In this document: one piece after another, positions 1,955 to 56,690 of the stretch
How positions within the stretch are numbered: position 1 is the stretch's first letter
Layout of the letters: each line of letters begins with the position of its first letter
Source: Rhytidiadelphus loreus
Lineage: Eukaryota; Streptophyta; Bryopsida; Hypnales; Hylocomiaceae
Direction: 5' to 3'
Assembly: GCA_947034895.1 (NCBI GenBank)
Contig: OX344763.1
Span: 62,825,093 to 62,889,092, forward strand
Length of the DNA: 64,000 bases
Made by a program: the position numbers and the translations under genes
The notes under the pieces: generated by a model
What the model was told of the DNA's origin: nothing
Databases searched by the model: none
What the model saw: only the letters and a program-made list of their open reading frames with translations

Positions 1955-3559
1955 TTGTCTTCCAACGACAGTAACTATTCCAAGTTTTCTTCCAACAACA
2001 ATAACTATCCAAACCCTAAAGATGGTTATGTAGTTGCACACTGCAAGGCAAGGAGAGATAGGAGATTGCTAGAGTTCATAACCCCAATTCTATATCTGGA
2101 ACGGCCAAACCGGATTACAGTGACTTGGACAAATATAATATTTGGAGCACTGAGTGGAGAGAGGAAAGTCTTCTGGGGAGGAATAGTGAAGGATCTAGTA
2201 GGGAAAATGGTTAGCACCCCAGGCAATACCAAGGGTACCTCTATTGGGCCTTTCGTTTTTCATTTGTATGATTATCTGGGGACACTCAGAAGTCAAGAGA
2301 GGAGTGTATATAAGGCGGCAGCCACTTTAGTAAAACCGAATATTTCTCCACCCTGAGAGCATGATAAAGAGGAGAGGAGGAAAGGACCGGATGAGGATTC
2401 CGAAAAGGCCTTGTCGGAGAAGAAGAAAGGGTCATCCGAGAGAAAAGAAAAGTCAGGGAGGATCCCAGCATCCACGAAGAAGAAAGGTCCCAAGAGGAAA
2501 TCGGCTGAGCCGGAAGTGCAAGGGGTCGACTCATTGGGCAGGATTATCTCAAATCTTGAGGTGATCCGAGAGGAAGTAGATACAGAAAGAGGAGCAATTA
2601 GGAATGTATGCAAATTGCTTGGTGGGATTTTCGTGTCTAAGTTAGCAGAAAAGATCAAGGATTTGATTCGGGATTCGGATACCTGGAAATCGGAAACCCG
2701 GATCTAGGAACAAGGATCTCCATCGGTAGTTAGAAAAGAGTTTGGAGAGGAGTAAGGAAGTGAAGAAACTTTCTATAGAATTTGAGGAAACCCTCAAGAG
2801 GGTTAGGAGCTTTGTTTCCCATTCCGGGGACATATTGAACAAAGCCAAGCTTTATGATGAGGAGATCCATAAGGTTGGTGATGAAGCAACAACAAAGGCA
2901 CTAATGGTGCTAGCAAAGTACTCAAAGCAGGTAGAGAAGTTTATGTACGAGATTTGGGACAGTCTTCAGTAAGCTATGTACTTTCTGGAATCCGACAAGG
3001 AGGAAGCAACACCAACACGACCAAAACTGGATATGCCTCCTTCCTCACCAGTGAAGCTAAAGGAGCGTTTAGATGTAGAGAAGACGCCCTCTAAGAGTTC
3101 CCCCTGGGTAAGAAGGAGATGAGATCGGGGTCTGTGCTCAGATCTGGTTCAAAGGAGCGAATCCGGAAGTTAGAGTCAGGACTAGGAACGCCTCAGAGTA
3201 AAGGTTCTAAGCCTTCATCCAATACTCCCAGCACTACCAAGAAGAAAAGCACTTCCAAGCGGCCTAGAGAGGAGTCACCAGAGAAGGTACAATCTGAAGA
3301 GGACAAATCACCAAAGGTCTCAGCGAAGGGGGAGAGTCAATCAGAATCTGAATTTGGGTTTGAGACCGGATCAAAATTCGATTCCGAAGGGAATTCAGAT
3401 GTAGTGACCATTTCTCTTTCTAGTTTTAAAGAAAAGTTTTAGACTCCCTCAAAAGGCAAAAGTGTAGCCAAGAAAAAGCCACCAACCAGCAAGAAGCAAC
3501 TACCAAGGAAAGGGGTCATGAAAACCGAGGAACCTTCTCCAAAGCGGGCAAAGAAGTAG
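1955..3559 (+). pseudogene. Copy A of the NTIF-motif gene family (truncated, frameshifted)
   Basis: This is a degraded member of the gene family carried by the elements at 3851-7339, 31603-35001, 39066-42741 and 52604-55989. Near 2030-2190 it keeps the family core: a KDGY-type start, then ITVTWTNIIFGALSGERK, the counterpart of VTITLGNTIFGTLTGQRK in copy C. An acidic/basic stretch follows (2360-2500), then a coiled coil with ILNKAKLYDEE near 2830, and a Lys/Ser-rich tail ending in KRAKK and a stop at 3557-3559. The first ~170 codons seen in the other copies are missing. At least two frame changes and several stops (for example at 2354 and 2705) break it. I found no TG...CA boundary or TSD, so this copy was truncated or recombined. 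The function is unknown to me. Confidence 0.6.
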
Positions 3560-3835: not shown

Positions 3836-5061
3836 AGATTTACAGATTATTGTCGCAACACAGGGCAAGCAATTTCCCCGTTATACTCCAAAAACCATTC
3901 TAAAGCATAACAAAAGTGACTCTAAAGATTGAACCCATGAGATTCTGTGAAGTATCTACCCTAGTTATGATTCTAAAATCAGTCAGTCTCCAAACTCCAC
4001 CTTTCCGGTCCTAATACTGCAACTGGAAATAATCCAACCAGTAGAAATTATGACCAAACTCTCTTCAACTTCCGGTCCAAGACGTGATCCGGTCCGTCAA
4101 ACTACAACAATACCAGAACCTTCTACTTTCCGGTCTAAGAATACTACCCTTAGATTGATCCGTTCCATTCCACCCTTGCTCACTCAAGTATCCTATCCGG
4201 TTTAGTTTTACCTATGTTTCACCATCAGAGGGTTTGCTGCTTGATTTTGAGAGTGGCAGGTCCGCTGCTCCTTCCGTGACTTATAGTGGCTGAAGACCCA
4301 CTATCCTATCCTCCAATCTTCTACTCTAATCCGGATCCAGTTTGATCCTTCACAGTAAGCCAGATGATAATCTAGTGTACAGGTCACACAAAGACCCCTT
4401 GTATGATCCGCTCATACTACAACAACTTTGATGCCAAGTTCCAACCGTACAAAGTTAGACGGTTGTAAGTGTACCCGTTCATTTCAACATCAACTAAGAT
4501 TCTTCCGTTCGCCACTACAACAGTGAGACCTCACAAGAGTTTAGGCACTCGACCGGATTACCCACCCAGGAGTTCTAGCACGACTAAGGAATCCCTCCCT
4601 ATTCGCCTAGTCTAACAACGGCTCTCTCACCCAGAATACTAAACCTTAGAAGCGCTGAGGCACTAGAGTACACTCCCAACTCTTACTACCCGCTCTCATG
4701 CACTTCGAATTAAAACAAGACCACCAAGGGGAGAAATCATTCATCAAAACTAAATGTGTGCTCCTAACTCCTCACTAAGCTATCCTGCCAAACACGAGAG
4801 AGATACAACACAAGGAGCAAATAGAATACACAAAAGAATTTCAACAAAAGGAATAACTCCCTTTCTCCTCCACAGAGAATGGTTTTTATATACACTTGAA
4901 GATCCCCAAAGTGAAAAGCGCCCCAAAAAGTCCGCACGGAACTTTCGGGCTAAACCTAATTGACAGACTAGATTTAATCTGTTCTGGCTCTTAACTAGCA
5001 GACCGGGTCCTAATCCGGTCCGGATTTTACTATCCGCTATTTACAAAAAGAAGAACTCAAA

Positions 5062-6710
5062 CTAAGCTTTCATGCCCACGTTCAGTGTGACACAAATGGT
5101 CTTGGGCGGAAGTTGGTCGAAAGTCTCTTGCAGGTTTCTGCTCCGCTCCCTAGCAACAGGATCTAGATGCTCTAGCAATGAATCCAACTCAATGTGCTCA
5201 GGAGATTCGGTCCGATCCGGCTTCCGTTTCTTCTTCGATTGGGGAGTAACATCTTTCTCCTCCTTCAGTTCCGTCCCGTCTGGAAACGACTCTGGCAAGG
5301 AGATATCCGAAAGACGGATATCCCTTGAGAGCATTGTTCCGGTCAACTTCTCGCTGCTCTTCTCCATCCGGTCAGCAGCTTTTCGGGCTCCTACCATTGC
5401 TACCTCCACCTGCTCAGTAAAGTCCGTCAGGATCCGAACCATCTGGGAACCGGATAGTTTCTTGTCCACCAGCCACCCCTCGTCAAACAGCTTTGCTTTG
5501 GCGACCGCCATTCCAGTTTCACCGAAAGCCTCCTTCACCAGCTTTGCTATCTTCTGAGTCGCATCCGCCATCTCCCTAGTGGCGGCCATATCTTCCTTGA
5601 TGGTGGCAATCTCCCCCTTCAACATGTCGACTTCCTCCTGAAGCCGATGGATCTCAACTTCTTGCTTCCAGTTCTCTTCCGGATTACTGATGTAGTCCGC
5701 TACTTTTCCGGGCAACAAACTGTCCGGTGGTGCTTCTATAAGCCTTCTGATCTACTCCAGGGTGATCTTTTGCACTTCCAATCTCCACGGATGTGAGAGA
5801 GGGTACCAATCAGATTGTTGAAGGGGTAATCCAGATCACTTTCTTTGGAGACTGGCTTCTTAGCTTCCGGTCGGTTTTCCGGTTTCGTCGTTTTCTCAGG
5901 AGGAGGTCCTCTTCCGTGTGGCGGTATCGTCTTCTGCCGCTTGAACCACTTCAAGGACTCCTCATCCTCGTCCGTCTCTTCCTCTTCTGAATCCGTTCCG
6001 AATCCTTCTTCTTCTTCATCCGTTTCCGATTCCCTGTACTTCAAAATGGTCTCTTGGGCCCACCAAGTCCTGTCTTCCTTGTCGGTGAGGACTTGGTGGT
6101 GATGATACAAGTGGAAGAGGTAGGGTGACAGAGGTGTGTCCCTACTCTTTCCTATCCGGGACACCAGATTGGACACCAGATCAGAGATGATCCGTGCCCA
6201 ATCTGTCTTCCGTTGTCCGGTCAAAGTGCCAAAGATGGTGTTGCCAAGGGTTATCGTCACCCTCATCGGTTTCTCCGGATGGAAGATCAGAATGAGGAAC
6301 TTGAGTAAGTTCCAGTTCCGGTCATCCTCACAATCTTCAACCGCGTATCCGTCCTTCGAGTTCACCGCTCCCCGAAACTTGTCATTGACGTACTCGTCCT
6401 TTTGGCTGGCCATTCCTAGACCTCCTAATCGGAAGTTATAAACTGACCTCCATGCTTCCTTCGTCCACTGGGACGGATTCCCTCTAACAGTATTATCAAA
6501 CTGATTTGATAATTTTCCCAATAACTTGCGGACTATCCGCTCCTCCTTAAACCTCCAAGGTTTCTCTGCCAAACCGGAACATCCCATGGTAGTGAGGTCC
6601 TCCATCAGCGCAGCCTTTTCCGGTTCGGTGGACAGAAGAACCGGAACCACCTTCCAAAGCTTTACTTTAGTTGCGGCAGAGCTGAATCTAGATCTTTGTA
6701 ACTACGGCAT
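5062..6710 (-). pseudogene. NTIF-motif gene of element C (one frameshift, TAG stops)
   Basis: The product would be about 550 residues and is not recognised. From the ATG at 6710 codon 3 is TAG, then the frame is open to 5736. The first part has a conserved block with GYAVEDCEDDRN, VTITLGNTIFGTLTGQRK and LFHLY, followed by an acidic stretch (ESETDEEEEG, TDEDEESLKW) and a basic/Pro region. A frameshift near 5800 moves reading to the frame of 5062-5718, where one TAG (near 5757) precedes a long predicted coiled coil (residues rich in E, K, L; FDEGWLVDKK), then a Lys-rich patch and the stop near 5062. No enzymatic motif is visible. The acidic, coiled-coil and basic order suggests a structural or DNA/chromatin-binding protein, but that is inference. 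The best-preserved relatives are the genes at 40326-42162 and 32707-34572. Confidence 0.65.
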
Positions 6711-6992
6711 GGGCACAGCTCAGAGGCACTCAAAATCTCCTCGAGACTACCTCACTTTCCCTTTTAGCCACACGTCCCGTTCCTCACTTTGCCTCCTCTA
6801 GTCTCGACCAAAAAGCAACAAAACCTACAACTGCGGAAGCCCAACCCCGCAGTGCCCAAAAATCCTCACTACTAACACTCTACTTTACAAACTCAAAGAA
6901 AAATCACAATGCGGAAGTATAACACAACGCAGGTGCGAGTACGAGTCTTAGCGAACAAGGATGCAAAGGGGGTACCAATTGGCGTGGCCATC

Positions 6993-7003
6993 CTTTATAT
7001 ATT
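6993..7003 (-). promoter_or_regulatory. Putative TATA box of element C gene
   Basis: On the minus strand the sequence reads AATATATAAAGG, a good plant TATA match, about 285 bp upstream of the ATG at 6710. Elements E and F have a TATA box at a fixed 107 bp from their ATG, so gene-oriented promoters are a shared feature of the family. Confidence 0.45.
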
Positions 7004-9379
7004 CCCAGGGTCCCAACTAGGTCATCATGACCTAATCCGGTTCAATCTAATCCACTCTCACCTAATCCATTCTGACTAAATCCGTTTTGACAGAACTAAT
7101 CCGGACAGAATTAATCCGCTCCGGACAAACCTAATCCAATACAACCAATTCCGATCCGGACAGATTCCATGTCTAGTTACTTCTGTTGGAACAGATTTGG
7201 ATCCAGTTAGTATCATATCTCCATTCCTCGTCTAATTTCTAGTTTTATCTTATCCCTAAACCAGATCCAAATTCCTTGTAAGGGCTTCAAATCCACTTTT
7301 TGAGATAACTTAACAAAACCAAAAATTCTCGTTGCAACAATTATTAGACAATTATCCTCGGCCCGAGGATAACTCTTACAGAGACCACATAATAATTATT
7401 CAGAAATAACAGTCTGGGTGAAAGGAATACATAAAGACAACTAGAGCATGGACATAAATTTTATCTTCGCCTTGAAGATAAGAGAGGGGTACCTTATACG
7501 TTGTGATGTTGTAGATGGCTTTATTCCCTCTCACCAGCCCCTCGTTGTTTGTGTTGGTAGACCGCTTGAGCGCTTTCCAAACTTGCCTACATGCGGATAT
7601 TTGATTTCCCCATGTTGGTTGACTATGAACGAGATGATTGGAGGCATTGTACCACTTTGAAATATCTGTGAGCTATGTTGGGTCTCTAGTCCAGACGATC
7701 ACAACCTCCCACGTCTGCAACTCGACCTTCCGAGTCTCGTAGCATCCTCCATGTTGAAGTAGCTTGGCAACAGTGACACTATGCTAGTCATCAATAATGT
7801 AGAAACCTCCGTCCTTGATAGAATCCAATCTTTAGGACACTCCTTCAAAAACTTTTTATTGGTGTCCATAGGGGTCAAGCAAAGTTTTTGTCTTTGTTGC
7901 TCTGAACCAAGATGAATGAGGGTCTCTTTCTGCTCATCCACCAATTTCATTTTAAGCTTTCGGATAATATATCTTTTTTTGGCCAAGAAGCATTGCTTAA
8001 TATTTACAGTGAATATCTGGAGATGAAAAATGAAGCACTTGCCATTTTTCTTCCAAAATTCCGATTGATATGCAACAGCAACTTCGTATTTTTCAATCAA
8101 CTGCTTATTGGCCGGCTTCTTGGGATTCACGTTTGTGAGTATTGACCCTAAACTACTAGCGGTTGTAGGACGACTATCTGTGACGGTGTCGTGTTATACA
8201 TTTGTACATAGTGTAAAAACATAATATAATATGTTTATTGAGTAGCTTCAAAGTGACGCCTTTCCGTCGAGTAGCTTTAAGGTAACGCTTTTCTATTACA
8301 ATGCATTGCATCTATATAAGAAGATGGTTTTGCCTTAGAGCTTCATCGAATTCCACTAGTGATATTTGATTTTTACTTTACATTTAGAATGTTGAATTGG
8401 AGGGGGGGTTTTGAGTCGCAAGATGAATAGCCTCAACCAGAGGCTGAATTTGAGCTTTCATTGTCACAACTACCGGATCAACCTCTTTTGCCGCGAGATT
8501 TAGCATTGCCACGTAGACATCCTCAAGATGAAGTTGAACCTTCTCGTCCACCAAAGCAACCTCGCATGGAACGGTGATGGCATGGTAATCTTGATATCGA
8601 TGCTCATGCTTTAGTGATCTTGCTTCAAGTCGGAAGTGTTGAGCCAGACACTCGTGAAGTGACATTCGAGGCAAGTTATGAGGGCAAAAACATTAATTAA
8701 TATTTTTGCATGGTTCGACCGGTGGAAGGTAGTTGTAGCCACCAACGTTGGTTGGAAAGTCCAGTCAACCCATTGGCGAAAGTCGATCGTGCAGATTTAT
8801 GTAGCTGCCACCATTAAACACATCCTCAAATTTCTACAGATTGAATGAAGTTTTGATTGGAACTTTAGTTTTTTACCTCTAATAGGCATTTGTTGAATGT
8901 TAGTTCCTATTCTTATACTTTGAATTACTTATCCACTTTGTTTTGATTTGTATTGGCCTCTGGAAGGCCTATGTAGTTTGTTTTTATTTACTAAATAAGA
9001 TAGCTAAGGGAGTTTGAAGTTAGGAAAGAGTGTGAATGGGAATGTTGTTAGAATATTAGGTGAGGTCTTTGGTAGGAGAATGGGCTGAAGTGCCCCATCC
9101 CTCACCTTAGAAGGGGGGAAAAAGTAGGAAAGATGCCTTAGCTTGAGAGTTGGAGAGAGAAGTGGTGTGGGAGTTTTGGAGTTGGAAGGCCGAACTTTGA
9201 TGTGATGTAACTCATGGAGCACGAATCTTTAAGTAATGAAAAGTTGGCATCAGATTTCTTGTGACGAGAGCTTTGCAAAGAGTGTTTGCATGTTGAATTT
9301 GGAGTTGTGAGTCAAAAGTTATAGAGGTTTGAAGTTGTGAGGACCCGAGGACCTCCATTGAGAGGTCAGAGGCTTCATC

Positions 9380-11400: not shown

Positions 11401-11778
11401 GTTGATATGGATCTATGCATAGTAAACCATTAAGATCAGAATTGTAATTTGATTTTTATCTTCGAAGCGAAGATAATAGACTAGAGAAGTGTTGACTAAT
11501 GCATTTCGACTTAATCATTATCAATGCAGGCTACACATCATATCTAGGGCAGTGTACAATGTACAGACTATATTTGTAAATGATAACTACGGTTCATTAT
11601 CTTTGTTCTAAAGATAATACTTAACGATCTCTTCTTTTAATTTAACTATATTGTATTTGTATTTTATGTGGTTGTTTTAATCCTCAAGCTGAGGATATAT
11701 ATCATTGTTCTTATTTTCTGGTCTCTATATTGAACTATTGATTTAGTTAATCGGTATTTGTGTTTTTTCGTTTCTAAT

Positions 11779-12312
11779 TATCCTCAAGCCGAGGATAAAT
11801 GGTCCTTATTTAGTTTAGTTATATTGTATTTGTGTTATTTTTTTTTTTTTTTTATCCTCAAGCTGAGGATAAATGGTCCTTATTTAATTTAGTTATATTG
11901 TATTTGTGATTTTGTCGTCGCTATTTATCCTTGGGCCGAGGATACATGGTCCTTCTTTAGTTTAGTTATATTGTATTTGTATTATTTTCGTTGTTTTTTA
12001 TCCTTGAGCCGAGGATAAATGGTCATTATTTAATTTAGTTATATTGTATTTGTGATTTTTGTCGTCGCTATTTATGCTCGAGCCAAGGATAATTGATCCT
12101 TATTTAATTTAGTCATATTGTTTTCGTGATTTTTTTGTTGCTATTTATCCTTGGGTTGAGGATAATTGGTCCTTATTTAATTTAGTCATATTGTATTCGT
12201 GATTTTTTTGTTGCTATTTATCCTTAGGCCGAGGATAATTGGTCCTTATTTAATTTAGTTGTATTGTATCTTTGTTTTTTTCGTTGCTATTTATATTCGG
12301 CTCGAGGATAAT
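11779..12312. repeat. 73-bp minisatellite carrying a TATCCTC...GAGGATA palindrome
   Basis: Eight units start near 11779, 11853, 11926, 11999, 12072, 12146, 12219 and 12292, spacings 73-74 bp. A related palindrome stands alone at about 11679. Each unit holds a roughly 20-bp inverted repeat (TATCCTCAAGCCGAGGATA) followed by the conserved TTATTTAATTTAGTTATATTG. Paired changes in the two arms of some copies suggest that the palindrome itself matters. Confidence 0.8.
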
Positions 12313-12440
12313 TGTTAACCGTCAAGCTATGTGTTTCATTAGTTCTGTGGCTTCTTTGCTTTTATAGGGTGTACGTTATTCTTGACTTGAAGATAATCAT
12401 CTTTGACTCGAAGATAATTTTTGTTGTTCATAAAATAATA

Positions 12441-22455: not shown

Positions 22456-23057
22456 CTACTGCCACAGCCTGCCATCTGTTGGTCCTACTGGCCCTTCTTC
22501 CACGTGCTGGTCGCTTTGAATGCCTGCCACAACACATCCACGCACTGCTTTTTCCTAACTGACAGGGTCTGCCCGGGAAAAACTGCAGTGTTTCGTCTGC
22601 TGTGTTCCGGCATACCTGTAGTGCTGAAACAGGTCTGATTTATCGCATGCATGGGCCATGCCACGCCGCATGCATCGACATGGGCCATGCCATGCTTGGC
22701 TCTGTGTTCTAGGCCAGTGTTTCGTGGTGGCGGTAGGTTTAAGGCCTTTGGCTGTAGGGGTTTAGTAAGTTCACAAGAATTCAAGGATCGAACAGATGTG
22801 ACATTTTCTTTGGGAGGACCATAATTTGGTACCGATGAAAAGAAATGATAGAGTGACCCCCCCCAAAAGGACATTCACTATGTTAAGAAAGGTAAAAAGA
22901 AATAAAAAATAAGAACTTCAAACAAAAAATAAGAAATTTAATGGAACAAACAAAAAAAAGGAAAATAACCAAATTTTATTACATGGTCAATCTAATGAAC
23001 AATATAGATCTGAATTAAAAAAACATAGAGCTTCATCAAAATTATAAGAAATTTAAA

Positions 23058-23880
23058 CCCATTCAACTCCAAACTCTTTTGGACAAATGGTTTTTGGGTT
23101 CAGGAATTGGCCCCCGATTATTAGGGATGCATCCGGTTAGGGAGTGATAAAACACTCCCTAACCCAAAAAAAATGTATAATTGTGTGTGGCGGACCCATT
23201 CTACTCCAAACTCTTTTGGGGAAATGGTTTTAGGGTTCTGGAATTGGCTCCTGATTACTAGGGGTGCATCCGGTTAGGGAGTGATAAAGCACTCCCTAAC
23301 CCAAAAAAAATGTATAATTGCGTGGCCCTAAACCCACTGTTCTCCAAACTCTTTTGGGGAAATGGTTTTAGGGTTGAGGGTTTGGCTCCCGTTTCTTAGG
23401 GGTGCATCCGGTTAGGGAGTGATGAAGCACTCCCTAATCCAAAAAAAATGTATAATTGCGTGTGGCGGACCCATTCTACTCCAATATTGACAGGGAAATG
23501 GTTTTAGGGTTCTGGAATTGACTCCCGATTACTAGGGGTGCATCCGGTTAGGGAGTAATAAAGCACTCCCTAACCCAAAAAAAATGTATAATTGCGTGGC
23601 CCTAAACCCACTGTTCTCCACACTCTTTTGGGGAAATGGTTTTAGGGTTGAGGGTTTGGCTCCCGATTATTAGGGGTGCATCTGGTTAGGAAGTGCTGCA
23701 GTACTCCCTAACCCAAAAAAAATGTATAATTGCGGTTTAGGACCCATTGTACTCCAAATTCATTTGGGGAAATGGTTTTAGGGAAGACCAACTCAGCCTC
23801 GATTGTTAGGGGTGCATCTGTTTAGGGAGTGCGAAAACACTCTCTAAACCCCCCCAAAAAGGTACATTGGGGGGGGGTGG
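23058..23880. repeat. Six 137-bp tandem repeats, each with a 12-bp-stem hairpin
   Basis: The ACTCC/TCTCC marker recurs at 23066, 23203, 23341, 23478, 23615 and 23751 (spacing 136-138). Each unit contains GGTTAGGGAGTG, a 6-base loop and CACTCCCTAACC, so the DNA can fold into a hairpin with a perfect 12-bp stem in the better copies. Most units also carry TTTTAGGG, like the plant telomere repeat. The array lies about 650 bp inside the left end of the MULE, where binding sites for the transposase would be expected. Confidence 0.85.
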
Positions 23881-26820: not shown

Positions 26821-27060
26821 CCGAAGAAAGACTGGTCTTGAGTTGTTGGCGTCGCTCCTAAATCGGAGTCGAACACGGAACTGAAGAAAGACTGGTCCCG
26901 AGTTGTCGGCGCCGCTCCAATGTCAGAGAAGGGGCCGCAACCAAAGAAAGACTGGTCTCGAGTTGTTGGCGCCGCTCCAAATCCAGAGCCGTGGCCACAA
27001 CGGAAGAAAGACTGGTCCCGAGTTGTCGGTGCCACTCCAAATCTAGACCTGTGGCCGGAA
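26821..27060 (+). repeat. Four exact-period 60-bp repeats coding KKDWSRVVGAAP
   Basis: Units start at 26821, 26881, 26941 and 27001. Each encodes 20 residues: KKDWSRVVGAAP followed by a variable 8-residue spacer ending in Pro/Lys. The Trp and the Arg-Val-Val-Gly core are constant, apart from one CGA-to-TGA stop in unit 1 (26839). The repeats are in frame with the rest of the Ulp1 gene and look like a short protein-interaction or substrate-like motif; their role is unknown. Confidence 0.85.
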
Positions 27061-30648: not shown

Positions 30649-31602
30649 AAGACGAGTAGGGTCGAAACAGTTGAGCTATAGAAGTATGAGTAATAGAATC
30701 CGCGGTTTAGGGATATTGGTGGGCCTTGTGATATTTTCTTTCGGTTGTTAACGCAGAGGTTGTAGGAAACATACAGAATACAATATTACCCTATGAACGA
30801 ACTATTTTATACGCTGCTCCCGTCCGCAGATGTATGTAAATTATGATGCCTAGTATTTGCGCAGAAACATACATATTTGCCTGTATGGAGTCTGGATTTT
30901 AAAGTTTCCACACACTGAACATTTTCATGCAGTTTTGGTCCTACCCAAGAAGTGCACGGTTGGCGTGATGTCTTGCGAGCTCGGCCAAACGTGTGAAGAT
31001 TAGAAAACAGTCGTAATTGGTGCCTATTCGACATTATTTCAAACATACACTCCGTCCGGAACAGTGGACCAAAAAAGAATCAATTGAACGGAACCAGTTC
31101 TTTAGAGTTGCAGCCATACATTACATGAACGATCGTGTCAGGAACTATAGGTGAATTTGATTTAGTCCAGCAGTCCTATATCCCTTGGGCATTGGGATAA
31201 AATGGCCAAAGACTCAACGCACGACAGTGAACTCGAAACATTGGTCCGCTTAACATGGGCATTGCCTTTGCGTGACAAGACGGACAATGCCGCACACATG
31301 GTAACCCCTATTGACATGAGCTGTTGCCTTTCATCAATGTAGGTATCACTATCGACACTAAGTGAGTCAAGAGGTCACAAGTTATCGGTATCGAAACATT
31401 GGAGGTCGTGTGCGAATACCGAGAAGTATAGTTTAGTGTTTTGTTTGAAACAACAAAGTGTGTGCATCATCTAAACTCAAACGTTAGCATGATCAAGAAG
31501 TCAGTTCTAAAACATTTTATTGCTAAAGAACCTGAACTTCCACACCCAATATCCTTAACTATGAGAATGAAAAGTTACTGGCCCCAACTTGTAGGGTACA
31601 GG
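30649..31602. other. 3' spacer of the Ulp1 gene, no gene
   Basis: No coding features. This is the region between the converging MULE genes; element E inserted at its right end (TSD 31598-31602). Confidence 0.6.
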
Positions 31603-32706
31603 TGTCATACCCGCAGTACTGTAGTAAGCGCTCTTAACCACAACAACGTGGTAAGATGACACGGAATATCGTCCCAGGGAACCCCAGAGGGTGTTCTAAA
31701 CTCTTTTTTATCCAGTTAATGTGAATAACTTCAAATATCACTCTCCACCCGGATTCTACAACTTTCCGGACTCTCTACCGGATCCAGATCTCACCCGTCA
31801 CCAAATCTGTAACTCCAAACACACGGGTTTTGTTACCTCTATTTTACCTTCAAAGGGTCCTCACTTACTTTTTGAGAGGGGTAGGGACACCACCACTCCT
31901 TGTATCTCACTTTAACTCTAACTTTCTAATGACACGGACCCAAAGAACTTTCCGTCACAACCAAGGTACAGACTAGCTAACCCTCACAACTTCGAATTTC
32001 TCCAGAAGCAAGTCACTCAGAATACAACCCGACCCCCCTTGCTACAACGACAGATACAGAACTTACCTGGAAATTGAGACGGGGTTCGGTACCAGAATTC
32101 CAACTTGTATTTGTAAACTGGCGGAGCTTTCCGGGTGAGTGGGGTTTTTCCACAAACGGTCGCTTATCTCCGCACAGAACCCTCCCTGGCCTTCCGGACT
32201 CGCACCCACACCACCAACACCGGACTCCGCACAACTTCCTTCACAACACTAAATCCCTTCCTTGGACAAACACACAGTTCACAGACTCGGGAAATCCTGA
32301 ATCCGGACTCCTCCTTACCACCTCTCTACTCTTAAGCCACAATTGTCAAGCATGCGCCCAAGCAACCTTAAAAACTCCCAAGGAAAAAGAAAGCAAGGAT
32401 CCACAAGAAAACTAAGGCAATGAGTGAAAAGACAATAAAATTGCAAACATATATTTACTGCTCAAAATAAGGAATAGCAAGAAAAGGAATGAGGGACCAC
32501 AAGCGGTCCCTTCCTTTTAAAAGAAAAACAGCATGCCGGAAAACCTGTGGAAAGTGCCGCTTCGCCCAATCCTAAACTGCCCTAAAAATCCGGGCGGATA
32601 AGTTAATTGAAACTTCACCCTGAAAATCCGGAATCCGGGTTCTGCATGAAGACCTGGAACTCCTAGTCTAACAAAATGGTAACTGGAAAATTACCAGTCT
32701 AACTAC

Positions 32707-34572
32707 CTACTTTCTCTTACGCGGTTTCTTCGAACTGCTGTTGAAACCTAACTGACTTTGAGTGTTGGTCTTGCCTTGGGGTGTCCGGAGTGATGCCCGG
32801 GTGATGATGGACGTTTTTCGGACAAAGGGACTATCAGAGTCCGTCTCATCCGTGTGGACTAAAGTCCAGTCCGCTTTCTCCAAAGAGTGCGGATCTTCCT
32901 CTACCTCTACCTCCTCCGAGATCTCAATGGGAACCGGATCTGGTGTACACATTGGGGCGAGCGGAGGGGGTTCGATGTCATCAAACTGCTCCGGATGTGT
33001 ATGCGCCAAATTCTACACAAGCTTGATCCGAGCGTCCAGACTACTCCGGACCGGCATCCCCGGATCCGGAAATACGGGACTCTGCCCTCCTACGCTGACA
33101 ATGTTCAGCAGAGACCCAAACTGACCTGTCCGTTTCGCGGGTGAGATGGGGGGTTGAGTTGACGAAGTGGCAATGACATCCGGGACTTCCGGAAATCCAC
33201 CGAAGTCGAGGGGCTTGTTCGGATCCAGGTTCGCTATCATGGAGTGGAACTCCTTCAACGACGCCTCCATTCTGCCTGACATTTCCACCATAATCCGGAC
33301 GATCTTTGTGTTGGTGAGGGCCGTGGACGTCTTCTGCATTTTGTCATAAAAGGCCGCCTTGTGGTAGAAGTCGGCCGGACTCACCATCCACTTCTGGAAG
33401 GTCTGGAATGCTTGGTAGGCCTTCTGCGTCACCTCCTGAGAGTGGTGCAGATCCCCTTCCGTCCAACTCAGCTTCCCCTTGAGCTCCTCCTGTTCCGTCT
33501 TGAGTTTCCGGATCTCCGTCCTCATCTTGTTCCATTCCGACTCGGGCGGCAGCATCTTCAGTACGTCCAGAAGGTTTTGTGGTTTGCAGTGCATCACGTC
33601 CGCGAACTGGAGTACGATCTCCGCGAGCCTGTCGTGGTACATCTTCGCGGTCCGGAGCCACTCTTCTCCGCACTCGAAGAAGTGTGGTCCTTCCCATTCT
33701 TTTGTATCATGTGCGAGGAAGGGACCCGGAAATTTACCTTTGGTTGCCGGATCCGTAGACTTCCGTCTCCAGCTTGCAGATGCCTCCTCCCGTTCCTCCT
33801 TCTCCCTTTGTGTCAGCTTCTATTTCAGCTCTACCTTCTCTTCCTTCACTTCCGGCTTGACGTCCTCGTCCTTGTTCTCAAACTCTTGCATCTCCGGCTC
33901 CTCGTCATCCGTGTAGTTGCATTGCAGCATGATCAATCCAGTCTCATAATCCATCGACTCGTCTTTCGTCAGCAGTTCCCGGTGCTGGTACAGGTGGAGG
34001 AGATACATGCTGAGCGGGTTCGGCTTATTCTTTGTCAGGTTTCCAATGCACCGCCCCACTACATTCGCCATGACCCGACCCTAGTGAACGACCCGGTTCT
34101 GGAATGCCCTGAATATCGTGTTGGCCATCGTGACCGTAACTCGGAAACTCTTGTCCGGATACAGAATTGGCAGGAGAAACCGGAGCAGTCGCTTGTGTCG
34201 CTCGTCCCGACAATCCTTGATGGCGTAGCCTTCCTTCAGGTGCGGCGGATTCATGAACTTGTGCTAGTGATACTGGTCCGTTCGGGCGGCGAATCCGTTT
34301 CCAGATTTTGGAAACCCGTAAACCTCCGCCCACAACTCCTCCGTCCATTGGTCCGGATGCCCTCGTACGGTCTGGTCGTATTGATTCGGTGCGCCCACCG
34401 CCAACTCTCGGAGGACCTGGTCACTCTAGACGTTCCAGGGTTTCTTCAGCAAACCTGTACACCCCAAGACCTTCAAATCGTCCTCTAACAGACAAAGGTG
34501 CAGCGTATCCGTCGAAATTACCGGACTAATTTTCCGGGCTGGGACTGTATACCACGTACTAACCCTTGCCAT
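32707..34572 (-). pseudogene. NTIF-motif gene of element E: one 622-codon frame, five TAG
   Basis: From ATG at 34572 (MARVSTWYTV) to TAG at 32707 a single frame of 622 codons has no frameshift. The only interruptions are five TAG codons at 34426, 34264, 34081, 33820 and 33013. Order of parts: N-terminal block with GYAIKDCRDERHKR and VTVTMANTIFRAF (about residues 115-165), LLHLYQHRELL, an acidic patch (TDDEEPEMQEFENKDED), a coiled coil (KMRTEIRKLKTEQEELKGKL, then HKAAFYDKMQ), a Pro-rich linker (TQPPISPAKR), and a Ser/Lys tail ending KKPRKRK that resembles a nuclear localisation signal. The family is unknown to me and has no visible active site. At three TAG sites the F copy has CAG (two) or TGG (one), so they are secondary. 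The TAG at 33820 is shared with F. Confidence 0.75.
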
Positions 34573-34678
34573 CCGTCTCACCTCTCCTAACGCCGTAACC
34601 CTAACTCACCACACTTTCTCTCACTATCAACTAGATGCGGAGCAACTGAAAGAGGGCGAGAAATGAGGAGGAGTTGGG

Positions 34679-34687
34679 TTTATATAC
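34679..34687 (-). promoter_or_regulatory. TATA box of element E gene
   Basis: The minus strand reads GTATATAAACCC, 107 bp upstream of the ATG at 34572. Element F has GTATATATAT at the same distance from its ATG, and the leader between (CTCCTCATTTCTCGCCCTCT) is conserved in both copies, so promoter and 5' leader appear to be kept as a unit. Confidence 0.55.
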
Positions 34688-35006
34688 TATTCCTGCGCCC
34701 AATGTTCAAAACAACGGGAACGCAGGCTACAGAACGTTGTAATGTATCCCTAGTCTATCGCTGCAAGCTACTGTATTTAATGACTGCATTCCGGGTTCCT
34801 GTGTTCCGGCTCCTGAATCCGTCCACCCGGATGTCAAGTTCCGTTATGCTCCCGTACTAGTTCCGGAATTAAGTCTAAAGTAGTTCTAAGGATTTATTTG
34901 TTTCCGTTAGTCTATGCCTAAACTAATTTTTTTCAAATTTGTATTATTTTAATTTCTTCTACTCTATTAGGATCCGTCCTAAGCTATTATGGATTTCGGC
35001 AACAGG

Positions 35007-39065: not shown

Positions 39066-42000
39066 TATCGTAGCACAAGAAAGTCGAAATGCTTCTCTAA
39101 GATCGGAAAAGGCCCTAAAGTGACTCGTTTATCGTTCCCACAGAGATTTGTCACTAATTTATAATAACCGGAAATACGGATAAGAATTACCACAACAACC
39201 CTAAGCAAAACCTACTCAAATCCGGTAGGGAAACTAAGCTAAACTATCCGGATTACCTCTAGATCTGAATCTAAGCTATTTCCTAACCCCTGCAATCTAC
39301 AATTTACCTAGACTAAAGACCGGAACTGGAAACCAGGTAGCTAACCCAGTTTCTGGACTTCCTGTCAACGTAACCGGATTCGAGTTTAACCTCTGGACTA
39401 AGAGGGGTCTGCGTATTGTGCTTTAGGAAGGAAGCTGATCACCTACCCTCTGCGTTTTATAGTGTCAAGAGTGCCACTTTTAAATAAACCAACAACACAC
39501 AAATATACTACTTAACTAACTTTCCTTCACAGCTAAACCGGAAGATTCCGGATCAACAGGTCACGCAAGAAAACCCAACTAACAACCTAACAAATACTAC
39601 AACGATAGCCTATTGGATTAGTCTAAGATCCGGATAGAATCCGAGACATACGGAATGGGGGAATATCACATCCCCTTCAGTTTCCGGTTAACCGAAGAAT
39701 CTATCAACCATTAAGCTAGAGAGTTCCGGTAATTCAACGGTTGCAACTCTAGTTTATTGGGACCGTATTCTACTAATGGAATCTGAACTGATCACGCCAT
39801 TGGGATCAGGAAAACGCCATCACACAAAAACTCATTTAAACTCCCAGAATCTGGATAAATCCAACATCCGGGCATACTTCCCCTCTACCTATTCCTGCAA
39901 TCCAAATGAATATACAATGACATAGTATGCCATCCAAGTACGCTCAGACACACAAGGTGAATCAGAAAGCTCTGACTTGTATTGCACGATGCTAGGGAAG
40001 CAAGATCCGAAAATGCACACTAAACAACTAAAAATCTGAGTCCTAAATAGTTTACAACCCAAGGGACTTTTACCGCCCAGGGAATCAAAAGTAAAAAACC
40101 AAGGGAATGACACGTGTCATTTTTCTTATCTGCCTCAAAGTTGACTTCCTAACAGCCAGCCCTTCTACAAAAAATGGATCTCAGATCCTAAAAATCCGGA
40201 TCTAGGCAATTTCAACAGAAATTCCCTACTCACCTAAAAAGCTACTTGAAAAACTACTTTTCTACCAAAAACTTAGGTTTCCAGCCGCCCATCTATTGTT
40301 CTACCTAACCCTAAAATCACTTCTTCTACCGCTTAGCTGGAGTCTTCACTGAAGTGGTAGCTCCCTTCCTCGCTAGCTGTTTCCGGGCAGAACCAGAAAC
40401 ACTCGAAGCCCTGCGTTTCTTCGTCTTCGACTTCTGTGCCTTCAACTTGGTCTTGGTTCGCTTTGGAGTTGCTAATTCTTGGTCTGGATCTGAGTATGGC
40501 TCAAACTCTTCCCCAATCCTAAAACCGGATTCTACCTCTTCTTCTTCCGATTCATCTTCTTCTTCTTCTTCGGATCCCAACTCAATGGGCTTTTTCTGTG
40601 ATTCCGACCTCCTCTTTGCTGCTTCGCTTGGGGATGGGGAAGCAGTAGATTTCTTACTCTGTGGTGTCTCCCGACTTCCTTCCTTGCCTTTGGTTTGACC
40701 TTGAGTCTGGGATCCGGGCGTAGATACACGTTCGCCACCGGATTCCTGCACAACGCTCCCCTTGGCAGGGGGCGGTGACATCCACACTTCCCAGAGACTT
40801 TCCGGTTTTATCCTGGCCCAATGGTGACATATGCCGGCTATCCGATCTTGGGGATCTGGCGGGAGTACCCTCCTTGCGTTCTGTGACTTCCGGTTTTGGT
40901 TTTGGAGGCTGACTGCTCTCTCCCACTACACTCCTCATCTGAACAAGTAACTCTTCTAGTTGTGAATGGAAGGTAACGAGGACATTAATGACCTTGTCCC
41001 CTAATCTTCCTTCCCCTTCTAAAACCTTCTCATCGAAGAGCTTGGCCTTGTTTAATATCTCCGCCGGATGTGTGATAAACTTTGCAATCCGGTCAAGCAT
41101 CTCTTTTGACCGGATAGAGTTTTTCCTCACTTGTTCACTTTCCTGACTTCTCTCACTCAACTCTTTTTTCAAGGCGATTACCTCATCCATCAGTACAGTG
41201 ATTTTCTCTTTTTCGGCCCTTCCCTCAGCATCCTGAATGAGATTCCGGATTTGTTCCTCACATTGACTCACGGGAATGTCGCCTAGCAACTTATACACCC
41301 GGACTATGGTACTTTGTTCTTTCTCATGACTCTCCCTGATCTGGTTTAGATCCTTAATGATCTTCTTAAGCGGATCACTCCCCCAGACTAGGTCTCATTC
41401 CTCTCTTTTTTATTGTTCCGGTTTATCCTTGCCGGAATCCCCGGAACTCTCTTCCTGTCTCTCCACATTCTCTTCCTCTGAGTCTGCTTTCATCCCGTGT
41501 GCTAGTCTTATTTCCTGAACCTTGTACTCACGCCTCTCTTCTACTCTCATGTAGTCATGCGCGTGGTAAAGGTGGTAAAAGAAAGGAGAAAGACTAGACG
41601 GCTTTGTTTTCCCTACTGCCTTACAAAGCTTTCCCACATGATCCCGCAAAACTACCCTCCAGTCGACTTTCTGGTCTCCGGACAGAGCACCAAAAATTGT
41701 ATTGCCTAGAGTAATAGTTAATTGAGTACCCTTGTCCGGACTGAGGATGGGGACCAGAAATTCTAGTACCCTTCTCTCCCGATCATTCTTGCACTCACTC
41801 ACGGTATACCCATCCTTAGGGTGAGGGGGGTTCATAAATTTACCCACCGCATACTTGTCCGTCCTTAAGGCGGGCCCTTCCCCTCCTCTTGTAAATCCGT
41901 AAACTTCCCGCCACACCGCTTGGGTCCATTTGTCCGGAACTGCCCGCATAGTTTTCTTCCACTCGTTTGATTGTGGATGCAGTACTTCCCTCACCATTAC

Positions 42001-42741
42001 TTTGTCCTTGAAATTCCAGGGTCGCTCCAGCAATCCGGTGCAGCCTAGCTAGCTCAAGTCCTCCACTAGATCCACTCGCAATACTGCATCCTCCAGAATC
42101 ACCGGACTGACATGCTTCAACGATACTTTCACAGTCTCCTCTTCCGATTCACTTCTGGTCATGGTTGTTTCCTTACTTCTCACTACTGCAACAGTTCCTC
42201 ACCACACTCATTGTTTCGACTAAGGGGTTGAAACGAATACTATGTTAGGAAACCCCGGAAACTACTATAGACAAGAGAAATAGCAAACACCAACGAAGGG
42301 AGCCGGAAATGTGTACAAGAACCCTAACTATACTGTCTTTAAACTTTCCGCTTGGGAATGCCCTAACTTCCTACCGTTTGATCGTGCCGTTCCCACTAAT
42401 TACCCGTTAATCCGATCGTTTCCCAATTACCGGGTACCGTTGGTGGTCCTAATTAGTTCCAACTGGCTCCCGATAGTCTATTTCCCTGATCCTATTCCTG
42501 GTTCCGGTTCCGAGCAAGTTTTCCTAACGACTTTGGTAGTTCCGGCCTGTCTAGGATGTAAGGATATTATTTTCCTACTTAACTACTTTATCAATTTATG
42601 ATTTTCCTATCTTCCGGTTTTGAATACTATGCTTTATATCCAGATAATTCTAGGGAAACTTAGGTTTCATAACGAAAAAAACAAAAAAACAAACTATGAT
42701 TATATAGTATCTAAGCTACAAGGGATATTTGGGTCACAACA
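39066..42741 (-). mobile_element. Element D: single-gene element nested in the MULE transposase gene
   Basis: The element is 3676 bp. Its ends align with those of element C: start TATCGTAGCACA against TGTCGCAACACA, end GGGTCACAACA against CGTTGCAACA. The flanking duplication is GTACG (39061-39065) and GTACA (42742-42746), one difference that is a CG-to-CA change. The first dinucleotide is TA where TG is expected, again a G-to-A change. It inserted at the edge of the AT-hook array. It carries one gene (40326-42162, minus) and no retroviral enzyme. Confidence 0.75.
40326..42162 (-). pseudogene. NTIF-motif gene of element D
   Basis: From ATG at 42162 (MTRSESEEETVKV) the frame runs to about 40800 with TAG near 42049 and TAA/TGA near 41410-41380. 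A shift near 40800 then leads into the frame that ends at 40326. The N-terminal block has PKDGYTVSECKNDRERR, LTITLGNTIFGALSGDQK and FFYHLYHAHDY; next come an acidic Glu-rich piece, a coiled coil (MDEVIALKKELSERSQESEQ, ILNKAKLFDEK, HSQLEELLVQM), a second acidic run (SEEEEEDESEEEEVE) and a strongly basic tail (KLKAQKSKTKKRRASS) ending in TPAKR. It is closest in layout to copies A and C. The protein is not recognised. Confidence 0.7.
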
Positions 42742-51469: not shown

Positions 51470-53700
51470 TTGCCAATAAGGAAGTTCGTAGAATTCACTC
51501 AATCATTTGACACCGGTGCAATGCACAGGGTCTGCTTTAGTATTTTCTTTTCCGCCTAGATCAAGGTATGACAGTCGCTATGCTGCATACTTGATGATGT
51601 CTGTAGCAGGCATGATTTGTGGTGTACAACGTTGCACCACTTCACCATTGAACCTTCTATTGCGTCTATACGGATGATGTCGACTGAGATACCTTCTCAT
51701 TCCACCATAAACAATCTTTGAACCATGAATGCGTCCATTCAATAGAATGTCCCCTGTTTTAGCCATTCTCAAGTTTGTTTCTGGCCCACAATTGGGACAC
51801 CCCCTGTAACTCTTACAACATAGCCCTGATATTAGCCCATATGCTGAATAATCTGAGATGGTCCACATGAGCAAACCACGGACTGTAAATCCCCGTGACC
51901 CTTCTGGTTGTGAGAAATCTATTGATGGGACACCTTTCCATAGTTCTTGCAACTCTTTCAATAATGGACGTACATAGACGTCAATGTTTTTTGACGTTGG
52001 AGAGTTCTTCCCTGATATGAGAATGAAATGAAAAACTTCCTCGTAACAAACCACGGTTCAAAAATTATATATCAATATAAGCACATGCTATGTAGACCAT
52101 TTTGTATTACTTAGTTTGAATGGATTCACTCCATCCAACGCTAATGCCAGGCGTATGTTTCTTTTCTCCAATCCAAAGTTGTTGAAAGCTAGATGTGAGT
52201 CCACATGCTTCCACACTAGACTATCTACCACAGAGCGCATGATGCCATCGTCACTAACATGTTTAGTATACCCAGTCAACATGCGTGCTATCTCCATTGA
52301 CCTCCACATTCTCTTCAACCTTGGAATGAAGGGAAAATGTTGTACAATCTTCATTGGGATTGCATTAGTGCCGTCCACCCAAAGCGATTTCAAACACTTA
52401 GGACAGTTGTTCAAGTCTGCATACTCATTGTCAAATAGCACACATCCACTAGGGCAGGCGTGGATGTTCTTATAATTGAGTCCCAACCTTCGAATGTTTT
52501 TTCGAGCTATATAGTGCGTAGCCGATAGTTTGTTTTCCGCTAGCAACAAATCCTGAGATAAATACCGTAGTAGCTCATCCGTAAATCTATTGCTCACGCG
52601 GAATGTCGTACGCGTAGTACGGTAGTAAGCACTCTTAGCCACAACTACGTGGTAAGATGACATGGAATATTGTCCCAGGGAACCCTAGAGGGTGTTCTAA
52701 ACTTCTTCTAATCCGATTTTAACATAAATCACTCCAAATCTCACTCCTCACCCGGATTCCACTACTTTCCAGACTCACTACCGGATCCGGATCTCACTCG
52801 TCACCAGACCCGTAACTTCAAATTGGTTTGTTATACCTTTGTTTTACCCTCAGAGTGTCCTCACTTGCTCTTTTACGAGGGGTAGGGACATCACCACTCC
52901 TTGTTGTCTCACAAACTCTAACTTCCTAATGACACAGACCCAAAATACTTTCCGTCATAAACAAGGTACGGACTGGTTCATCCTCACAACTCCCGGATTA
53001 CTCCAAAAGCAGGTCACTCAGAATACAACCCGTCCCTCCTTACTACAACGATAGATACAGAACTATCTGGAAACTGAGACGGGGTCTGGTACCAGAACTT
53101 CAACTTGATCCGTAAGTCGGCAGACCTTCCGGGTGAGCAGAGGTTTTCCACAAGCGGTTGCTTATCTCTGTACGAAACCCTCCCTAGCCTTCCAGATTCG
53201 CACCCACACCACTAACTCCAGATTTCGCACAGCTCCTTCACAATTCTAAATCCCTTCCCTAGACACACATACAATTCACAGACCCGAGAAAGCCCTGAAT
53301 CCGGATTCCTCCTTACCACCTCTCTACCCTTTAGCCAAAAACTTCAAACACACCCCTAACAACCTTAAACACACAAGGAAAAGGAAAGCAAGGACCTACA
53401 TGAAAAACTAAGGCAATGAATAAAAAGACAGAAAATGCAAAAGTATATTTACTGCTCAAAACAAGGAATAGCAAGAAAAGGAATGAGGGACCACATGCAG
53501 GCCCTCCCTTTTAAAAGAAAACTATATGCTAGAAATCTTGCGGAAAGCACTACTCCCTCCAATCCTAAACTGCCCTGAAAATCCGGGAGGATAAGATAAC
53601 TGAATACAAAGCCTATAAATCCAGGATCCGGGTTCTGTATGAAGACCCGAAACTCCAATCTAACAAAATGAACAACTGCCAAAACAGCTAGACTAACTAC

Positions 53701-55564
53701 CTACTTTCCCTTCCGTTGTTTCTTCGAACTGCTATCGAATCCTAACTATCCCCGGGTGTTGGCCTTTCCTTGTGGTGTCCGGAGAGATGCCTGGGTAATG
53801 ATCGAGGTCTTCCGAACAAGGGGACTGTTTGACTTTGTATCGTCCATATGGACCAGAGATCGATCCGCTTTTTCCAAGGACTGCGGATCCTCCTCTATCT
53901 CCACCTCCTTCGAGATCTCTATGTGAATAGGATCCGATGTAGGCATTGGCTCGGTCGGAGGAGGCTCGATGTTCGCGAACTGCTCCAGATGCGTGCGTGT
54001 CGGATTCTGCACGAGTTCGATCCAGGCGTCCAAGCTACTCAAGACCGGAATCCCCGTATCCGGAAATGTGGGATTCTGTCCTCCTCCGGTCACGATATTG
54101 ATCAGTGATCCAAACTGACCTGAACGTTTTGCTGGTGAGATTGGCGGTTGCGTGGATGGAGTTCCAATGACATCCGAGACTTCCGGAAAACCACCAAAAT
54201 CGAGGGGCTTGTTTGGATCCATGTTCGCCATCATGGACCGGAACTTCTTTAGCGATGCTTCTATCCATCCCGCCATCTCTACCATAACCCGGATGATCTT
54301 AGTGTTGGTGACGGCTGTGGAATTTTTCTGCATTTCGTCATACAAGGCTGCCTTGTTGTAAAGGTCAACCGGGCTCACCATCCACTTCTGGAACGTTTGA
54401 AATGCTTGGTGGGCCTTCTGTGTTGCCTACTGGGATTGGTGTAGCTCCCCTTCCGTCTAGTTGAGTTTGGCCGTCAACTCCTCCCGTTCCGTCTGGAGTT
54501 TCCGGATTTCCGTCCTCATCTCGTCCCACTCTTTCTCCGGAGGCAACGTCTTCAGCACATACACCAGCTTTTCCGGATCGCATTGCATCACATCTGCCAA
54601 CTGCAACACGATGTCTGCGAGCCGGTCGTGGTATAGTTTGGCGGTCCGGATCCACTCTTCTCCACAGTCGAAGAATCGCGGTCCTTCCCAAGTCTTCACA
54701 TCCTGCGTGAGGAAGGTACCTGGAAATTTACCTCTGGCTTCCAGATCCGTAGACTTCCATCTCCAGCTTGTAGATGTCTCCTCTTGGTCTTCCTTCTCCT
54801 TCTATGGCACCTTCTCTTCCAGCTCCATCGGCTTATTCTTTCCTTCCGGTTTGACGTCCTCTTCCTCGTTTTTTGACTCCTACGTCTCCGGATCCTCGTC
54901 ATCTGAGCAGTTGCACTATAGCATCACTAGCCGGGTTTCGTAATCCGTCGCCTCATCTTCCGTCAGTAGCTCCCGGTGTTGGTACATGTGGAGCACGTAG
55001 GTGCTGAGCGGATTCGGCTTGTTCTTCGCCAGGTTTCCGGTACACCTCTCTACCACGCTTGCCATGATCCGTCCCCAGTGAACAATCCGGTCCTGGAACG
55101 CCCCGAAGATGGTGTTGGCCATCGTGACCGTCACCCGGGAACTCTTGTCCGAGTACAGAATGGGGAGCAGGAACCGGAGCAGCCACTTGTGTCGCTCGTC
55201 CCGGCAGTCCTTGATGGCGTACCCCTCCTTTGCGTGTGGCGGATTGACGAACTTGTGCTGGTGAAACTGGTCCGTCCGGGTGGTGAATCCGTCTCCGGTT
55301 TGCGGGAAGCCGTAAACTTCCGCCCAAAGCTGCTCCGTCCACTAATCCAGATGCTCGCGCATAGTCTGATCGTACTGGTTTGGTGGCCCACTGCCAACTC
55401 CCGGAGGACCTTATCACTTTAGACGCTCTAGGGTTTCTTCAGGAAACCTGCACAGCCCAAGACCTTCAAATCGTCCTCTAACTAGTGCAGATGGACCAGA
55501 TCCGTCAGGATGACCGGACTGAGTTTCCGGCCGGTACAATATACCACGTACTAATCCCTGCCAT
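53701..55564 (-). pseudogene. NTIF-motif gene of element F
   Basis: The ATG is at 55564 in the same context as in E. There is a 1-nt deletion near 55530 and another near 55385. From about 55134 down to 53701 one frame is kept with TAG stops at 54916, 54802, 54457-54430 and 53746 and others near. Conserved parts are VTVTMANTIFGAFQDRIVHW, LHMYQHRELLTED, MRTEIRKLQTEREELTAKLN, NKAALYDEMQ, TQPPISPAKRSGQFGSL and the tail SSSKKQRKGK. It is more damaged than E. Where E has CAG at 32752, F has TAG (53746); where E has TAG at 33013, F has CAG (54007). Confidence 0.7.
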
Positions 55565-55670
55565 CCATCTCACCTCTCTTAACGTTGTAACCCTAACTCA
55601 CCACACTTTCTCTCACTATCAACCAAATGCGGAGCAATTGAAAGAGGGCGAGAAATGAGGAGGAGAGCGA

Positions 55671-55681
55671 TATATATACCC
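55671..55681 (-). promoter_or_regulatory. TATA box of element F gene
   Basis: GTATATATATCG on the minus strand, 107 bp before the ATG at 55564, the same spacing as in E. Confidence 0.5.
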
Positions 55682-56690
55682 TTCCAGCGCCCAACGTTCA
55701 CTCCATCGGGAACGCAGGCTACGGAACGCCGTAACGGATCCCTAGTCTAGCGCCGCAAGCTACTATCTTAATGACTGCGTTCCGGTGGCTTTCCGGCTCC
55801 TGAATCTATCCCTCCCGGATGTCAAATTCCGTCATGTTCCCGTACTGACTCCGGAATTAGGTCTAAACTAATTTTAGGTATTTATTTGTTTTTGTTTCTC
55901 TATGCCTAAACTAATTTTTTTCAAATTTGTACTACTTTAATTTCTTCTAGTCTATTTTGATCCGTCTTGAACTATTACGGATTCCGACACGGAACACTGT
56001 ATTTATATTCATGATGATGATAGTCGTTGACACCACACTTGTCTTGGATCCCGCATATAGTGGCGTCGTGGCTTGCTCATACAACTCTTCCAATCTATCC
56101 AATGTATCTCCAGAGTTGTCCTCATTGTCTTCAACGTCTACAACTCCAACAGCGTCACGGTGTAATGTGTCACTTCTGTCCAACGCAGTAATGACTTGCC
56201 TTTGAACCTCATGTAATTCATCCAATGCAAGGTTGGTCTGATCCATTGCTTCTTCTTGCACCATGTTAGGTACATCCATGTTGGCTATGTCATCATCATC
56301 ATTAGACATTCTTTGAACCTCTACATCAACTTATACGAGGTCATCATAAAAAATGTCATCTTCTATCCACAGTCCTCGACGTGGGTATCCATTTGGAGGA
56401 TCTCCTCCAATCATTGACTTCATTAGAAAGGTATCTCGACCCACAGTTGCATGGTGCTTTCTAATGATGTCTATACTCTTACACCGTCTGCCGTGACAAT
56501 CCCTACAAGGACATCGATATGCTCTAATATTTTGCTCCGTTGCTACTCGTAACTCCGTTTCCAATATCAAGTCCCCCACTAGAATGTGCCTTAGTGTATG
56601 TCCATTGGTAGAAATGCGAACAGTTGCGGGTTGCAATATCGACTGTATCGGCATGATGAAATTCTTTCTTACACGTACTATGAACATCAA

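Follow-up and report, generated by a model that had tools for sequence, protein, structure and literature searches.

What kind of mobile element carries a single protein gene between ends that resemble those of a long terminal repeat (LTR)? This question is raised by a stretch of 64,000 nucleotides (the window) of the moss Rhytidiadelphus loreus (GenBank assembly GCA_947034895.1, contig OX344763.1, positions 62,825,093 to 62,889,092 of the forward strand). An earlier note, made from the sequence alone, described in it four elements, here called E1 to E4, and proposed that they are either giant solo LTRs which enclose a gene or single-gene elements which an LTR-type integrase moves in trans. 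The evidence leans to the second reading, with the mobilising enzyme not found. Our tentative preference, held at close to an even chance, is that the elements are single DNA units with LTR-type ends which would move as DNA via an enzyme encoded elsewhere.

Boundaries and target duplications

The sequence of the window was rechecked, and the four elements lay where the earlier note had placed them, together with a fifth copy of the gene:

3851..7339, minus strand: element E1, 3489 bp, with TGT tips and ATTAT flanks at 3846-3850 and 7340-7344
31603..35001, minus strand: element E2, 3399 bp, with ACAGG flanks at 31598-31602 and 35002-35006
39066..42741, minus strand: element E3, 3676 bp, with one TA tip and the flanks GTACG and GTACA
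52604..55989, minus strand: element E4, 3386 bp, with CGGAA flanks at 52599-52603 and 55990-55994
about 2018..2575, plus strand: relic A, the fifth gene copy, found by a homologue match, element ends undefined

TG...CA tips and 5-bp duplications had been assigned to all four elements. Both are exact in E1, E2 and E4; in E3 the left tip is TA rather than TG and the duplication is mismatched at one base (GTACG/GTACA). The chance of an exact pair of 5-mers is about 0.0011 per site. The count of five family copies in 64 kb held, with E1 to E4 on the minus strand and relic A on the plus strand, and homology comparison showed that all five encode one protein family. E2 and E4 are 80.1% identical over their whole length, tip to tip, and E1 is about 74% identical, also tip to tip, to young E1-type copies found elsewhere in the genome. 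No DNA similarity was detected between E1, E2/E4 and E3 at E ≤ 1e-8 in the comparison within the window.

The insertion of E4 could be read from the gene that it interrupts, which encodes a tnp2-like transposase:

52088..52603, minus strand: downstream part of the tnp2 gene (PF02992), Pfam match
55995..56678, minus strand: upstream part of the tnp2 gene, whose frame continues into 52603 once E4 and one CGGAA are removed

Excluding E4 and one CGGAA (5 bp) restores a reading frame that has no stop over about 110 upstream residues and on into the PF02992 part. When 0-9 bp were removed from the right flank, 5 bp kept the frame, as did 2 and 8 bp, which give the same frame, and all other lengths broke it. 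The upstream part holds an in-frame stop at 56331-56333, and upstream of this stop lies a PF13963 match that is weak (E 0.0055) and misses the cut-off. Elsewhere in the window, minisatellite arrays, their units 38 to 274 bp long, were observed at 11741-12314, 23057-23847, 26821-27066 and 62155-62526.

The window's own assembly (407 Mb in 489 contigs) was searched for further copies. A protein search gave 1316 first-look candidates, so that the family is abundant, as had been supposed from the window. The best 150 of these 1316 form the protein-search list, and the best 40 of 456 candidates found with a young copy form the DNA-search list, in which 28 copies are near full length, 7 share a common internal deletion and 5 are partial or split. 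Ten places were fetched, and the nine with whole elements (S1 to S9) were counted as sites, a count that excludes S10, where the element is cut off at the edge of the stretch, and a broken E2-like copy in S3. Whole units at the nine sites measure 3508-3682 bp, and young copies are 96-97% identical to one another. The duplications at S3 to S9 are CGCAG, AGTAT, CTTAC, CTACT, GAGAG, TGTCG and CATGT; those of S7 and S8, where the alignment ends 2 bases before the tip, were read by eye.

A derivative of 2.3 kb, which lacks element positions 619-1825, was found at 7 sites, 6 of them with exact duplications (GAAGG, CTACT, GTGAG, CAAGT, CAAGA and GTAAC) and one with CACAG/CATAG. Derivatives without the N-terminal domain of the protein have been amplified. 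Taking the window, S3 to S9 and the derivatives together, exact 5-bp duplications stand at 16 of the 18 tallied insertions, and the ends thus recur as boundaries elsewhere in the genome. This tally excludes S1 and S2, which hold two copies each; the duplications of S2 are swapped and the copies of S1 have none of their own. The gene is conserved and intronless, as would be expected of an ordinary host gene family that was captured and duplicated by chance near TG...CA sequences, but the recurrence of the tips with their duplications and the restored tnp2 frame at the E4 site already contradict that explanation, which we regard as very improbable.

The 40 E1-type copies of the DNA-search list are distributed over all five large contigs. 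Contig C3 is crowded with E3-type copies, mainly at 46-84 Mb, and holds 101 of the 173 tabulated copies of all types; as a guess, C3 might contain a large non-recombining or sex-linked region.

The gene and its protein

The genes in the four elements of the window are all decayed:

5062..6720, minus strand: E1 gene in two frames, with open stretches at 5736-6701 and 5062-5751, located by tblastn with homologues
32720..34600, minus strand: E2 gene with 4 in-frame stops, located by homology
40320..42190, minus strand: E3 gene, split between frames, with an open stretch at 41410-42048 that was used as query
53700..55600, minus strand: E4 gene with 10 stops in the frame of E2, located by homology

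The gene was read in seven fetched E1-type copies, which had been picked from the protein-search list partly for long open frames. Each has a single intronless frame, of 541 or 550 amino acids in six copies and of 528 in the seventh, which has a stop, and this gene is the only sense-strand open reading frame (ORF) of more than 150 amino acids in E1-type copies. An antisense open frame of 320-329 amino acids lies over the gene in all seven (about positions 1260-2258) and is probably a by-product of codon usage.

The description of the family as unrecognised was borne out, as its own proteins gave no Pfam match passing the cut-off and the Pfam search found no integrase in the gene. A first homology search returned 260 database proteins at E ≤ 0.01 among 342 candidates, and a second, with the 541-residue frame, at least 182 at E ≤ 0.001 among 7995 scored candidates. 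Most of the 120 rows listed by the second search are metagenome clusters, of which the largest has 188 members, and a precomputed Pfam domain is absent from all 240 rows listed by both searches. Judged by their identities, the homologues appear to come from several species.

The protein of about 550 residues begins with a globular N-terminal domain; after it, an acidic linker, then a probable coiled coil and finally a charged tail were read from the sequence. A confident and mostly helical structure model was obtained for residues 21-230, and the structure search gave no match to it in PDB or BFVD at E ≤ 0.001. A confidently modelled domain unmatched at this threshold, in a widespread protein under purifying selection that is encoded by the only long sense-strand ORF, might suggest that the protein is a recombinase of a new kind, which would make the unit autonomous. 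However, the alignments showed no acidic triad conserved throughout, the D of a VDW motif being N, S or H in some members, and the helical character of the model also speaks against a recombinase, so that this explanation is considered unlikely.

Selection was estimated from two sets of copies. Between the E2 and E4 genes the proportion of changed synonymous sites (pS) is 0.50 and that of changed nonsynonymous sites (pN) 0.13, with a ratio of nonsynonymous to synonymous substitution rates (dN/dS) of 0.17, and third codon positions are changed about four times as often as second positions. In the seven young copies the pooled pN/pS is 0.25 (377 synonymous versus 1273 nonsynonymous sites); changes shared between copies are 20 synonymous versus 6 nonsynonymous, and singletons 52 versus 61. 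As judged from these sequences, the low dN/dS of E2/E4 and the low pN/pS of the young copies indicate that purifying selection acted on the protein during the multiplication of the elements. Between E2 and E4, about 15-17% of the compared positions in the non-coding ends are changed; since this is below the divergence at synonymous sites (50%), the ends may be constrained too, exchange being the other possibility.

Tips, promoter motifs and pairing

Nine young copies begin with TGTCG, and the tail of S5 reads TGTCA. The inversion of the tips extends over no more than about 8 bp, a length over which it is nearly complete in the young copies; in 13 elements 4-8 of the first 8 bases match, and little matches beyond. 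The earlier note had given every gene a TATA box of its own, and this holds for E1, E2 and E4, in which TATATAA or TATATAT lies before the gene, 312-339 bp from the tip, and not for E3, which has none at that place. The boxes in the window are as follows:

6995..7001, minus strand: TATATAA before the E1 gene, element position 339
4886..4892, minus strand: second TATATAA of E1, after the gene, element position 2448
34680-34686, minus strand: TATATAA of E2, from a pattern scan
55672-55678, minus strand: TATATAT of E4, from a pattern scan

Three young E1-type copies (S9, S6 and S2R) were scanned and likewise have TATATAA ahead of the gene, 316-339 bp from the head tip. In E1 and in these copies a second TATATAA follows the gene (2448-2489), so that two boxes flank it; no second box was found in E2 and E4 by this TATA pattern. 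In E3 and S7, TATATAA is instead located at 36-37 and TATAAAA near 3280.

Two boxes around a gene are what would be expected of giant solo LTRs. The unit would then be an LTR with the gene in its U3-like part, the second TATA box would start the genomic RNA, and full-length elements would have collapsed by recombination between LTRs of 3.5 kb. High homologous recombination is known for a moss and would favour such a collapse. The uniform length of the fetched whole copies fits this explanation, which we regard as quite possible, and the search for paired units bears on it directly.

The self-comparison of the window contained no paired unit, in agreement with the earlier note, whose further proposal, direct pairs 5-15 kb apart with gag-pol between them, came out negative in the sampled copies. 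No second unit in direct orientation was detected at any of the nine sites by self-comparison with flanks of 2.8-9.3 kb on each side. In the lists of 150 and 40 copies there was no pair of the same subfamily and the same strand within 15 kb, even though young copies have remained so similar, and this argues against collapsed giant LTRs. Within that distance the list of 150 contains two same-strand pairs of different subfamilies (66/46% and 46/67% identity to the query) and six opposite-strand pairs. The list of 40 has no same-strand pair within 30 kb, its nearest being a full copy and a derivative 48 kb apart.

As positive controls, two integrase loci chosen for long open frames, presumably Copia, were subjected to the same self-comparison. 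Both gave LTR pairs (172 and 193 bp) with 5-bp duplications (GATTT and AGAAC), and at the second locus TGGTATCAGAGC, which resembles a primer-binding site, follows directly after the LTR. The controls show that the method works; their LTRs are short and thus uninformative on the collapse rate of long ones. The duplications of the family are like those of these two LTR retrotransposons, which is consistent with solo LTRs.

Association with integrase genes was assessed with the 150 scored matches, the best of 890, of an integrase-domain search of the same genome. The proximity test used 148 of them, as two on small contigs of about 61% GC were dropped, and the length of contig C5 was set to 52 Mb by guess. 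Only 1 of 173 copies lies within 30 kb of an integrase match, versus 3.2 expected by chance. The listed copies are not enriched near these integrase matches, which within this sample weighs against solo LTRs. The best integrase matches of the genome lie on small contigs (C327 and C318, about 61% GC versus 42% in the window), which are probably bacterial contamination. Integrase frames of about 1400 residues cluster once per chromosome (C1 48.1-48.35, C2 53.15-53.3, C3 42.8-43.0, C4 48.8-48.9 and C5 49.66-49.87 Mb). These clusters are probably centromeres; centromeric Copia elements are known from mosses.

Inverted copies and the route of movement

Two sites contain inverted copies. At S1 (C2:64408388-64421723) two inverted copies flank arms of 2.6 kb and a loop of 1 kb, together forming a palindrome of 13.3 kb. 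This unit has head tips at both outer ends and ATCTT on both sides, and neither copy has a duplication of its own. The arm next to the tail contains an opposite-strand ORF that is unrelated to the family and is 52% and 34% identical to the two relatives found, P0240 and P0241. Because this ORF is cut at the tail junction while both relatives continue past the last shared residue, the DNA between the copies appears to be foreign; by its sequence the arm looks like DNA once interrupted by an element and not like a retrotransposon interior. In the simplest reading, a single DNA segment of 13.3 kb with a head tip at either end was inserted, a product that would be hard to obtain by reverse transcription of a retrotransposon with giant LTRs. 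An origin in place by template switching, via the similarity of the tips, is possible.

At S2 (C2:13980575-13992184) two inverted copies are 99.9% identical and their duplications are swapped (GCCGC; TCTTC, or GAAGA on the other strand), as expected if the intervening DNA was inverted by recombination between the copies. Recombination between copies hence occurs, which is in favour of the collapse to solo LTRs.

The absence of close pairs and the existence of the 13.3-kb unit favour single DNA units, whereas three points favour collapsed giant LTRs: the second TATA box, the shortness of the tips and the fact that solo LTRs are common. On balance single DNA units are slightly more likely, and giant LTRs are a close rival. 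Membership in either of the known families is not established.

Several observations weigh against single DNA units. No transposase or integrase belonging to the family was found in the sampled copies or in Pfam searches of the family proteins, and the protein has no known catalytic domain. In E1-type copies about 1 kb devoid of long frames comes after the second TATA box; this looks like a U3-R-U5 arrangement, and a DNA transposon would have no clear use for such a box. The 13.3-kb unit stands alone, and its appearance of an insertion could be mimicked by a rearrangement in place. Only part of the family was scored, and the list of 150 has 10 same-strand pairs within 50 kb; in three, the two members are alike in identity (84/91% at 30 kb, 90/90% at 44 kb and 79/83% at 49 kb). 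Finally, one copy (C3:42813675) has an integrase match (C3:42817159) 3.5 kb away on its own strand and lies downstream of it, as expected for a 3' LTR. This copy was taken as a chance insertion into an integrase cluster because no listed copy lies near the other matches in clusters of that type. Because of this copy and the wider same-strand pairs, the solo-LTR explanation was given more weight and that of single DNA units less.

Among DNA transposons, the closest resemblance is to Ginger/TDD elements. According to their description (PMC2836005), these have TGTNR tips as in Gypsy and 4-bp or, in TDD-4/5, 5-bp duplications, and Ginger has a gene for a Gypsy-like integrase as well as terminal inverted repeats that are about 40-270 bp long. 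The family shares with them the TGTNR termini, the short duplications and the single unit. It differs in that its unit has no integrase gene and in that its tips are inverted over about 8 bp rather than about 40-270 bp, the latter being a further point against DNA units. Since the same text states TGTNR-type TG...CA ends for Gypsy LTRs, the tips also agree with solo LTRs.

The family resembles solo LTRs in its TG...CA ends, 5-bp duplication, lone terminal unit and promoter-like TATA boxes inside, and is unlike them in units of 3.4-3.7 kb with a selected protein gene and in the lack of a full-length parent among the sampled copies, in which no internal region, the place of a tRNA primer-binding site and a polypurine tract, was found either. 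Non-autonomous TRIM and LARD elements are similar in their LTR-type ends and duplications, but they have two terminal direct repeats, which were not found in the family copies checked. Mouse mammary tumour virus, with the sag gene in its LTR, is comparable in having a protein gene within an LTR-like unit and differs in being a full retrovirus with paired LTRs.

The density of the motif TCCGG, which was chosen after inspection of the sequences, is 9-16 per kb in coding and non-coding parts of E1 to E4, 4.4 in relic A and 0.84 in the rest of the window. The enrichment is common to E1, E2/E4 and E3 despite their absent DNA similarity. TCCGG may be a binding site, or the enrichment may reflect base composition. 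A candidate model is provided by VANC, the anti-silencing proteins of Arabidopsis VANDAL transposons, which by description likewise combine a non-catalytic, element-encoded protein with a short motif enriched over the element; the ends and duplications of VANDAL elements differ.

For single DNA units the following mechanism is proposed. The family would comprise single-unit mobile elements of about 3.4-3.7 kb with TGTCG-type tips and a 5-bp duplication as made by retroviral-type integrases. An enzyme resembling DDE integrases, with its gene outside the unit, would excise the unit at its two tips and move it as DNA. The protein of the unit would serve as a trans-acting accessory factor that may recognise TCCGG/ATCCGG motifs over the element, either for assembly of a transposition complex or to counter silencing. 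On this tentative view, for which we see a reasonable chance short of even, the family would represent a new kind of mobile element in eukaryotes, made up of single DNA units that have LTR-type ends and 5-bp duplications, lack terminal repeats and encode one protein with no known relative in fold. A trans enzyme or a recombinase of a new type would cut and insert these units as DNA, and they would carry foreign DNA when two head tips serve as ends.

Standard annotation would probably file these units as solo LTRs. The family is large, as the numbers of database proteins over the thresholds of the two homology searches show, and neither reading of it is ordinary. Were the units LTRs, a selected protein gene would be maintained within the LTR of a retrotransposon, an arrangement known for few retroviruses, and the genome would have erased nearly all full-length copies. 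Were they single DNA units, the DNA route of elements with LTR-type ends would call for explanation, together with a protein family without a known fold relative.

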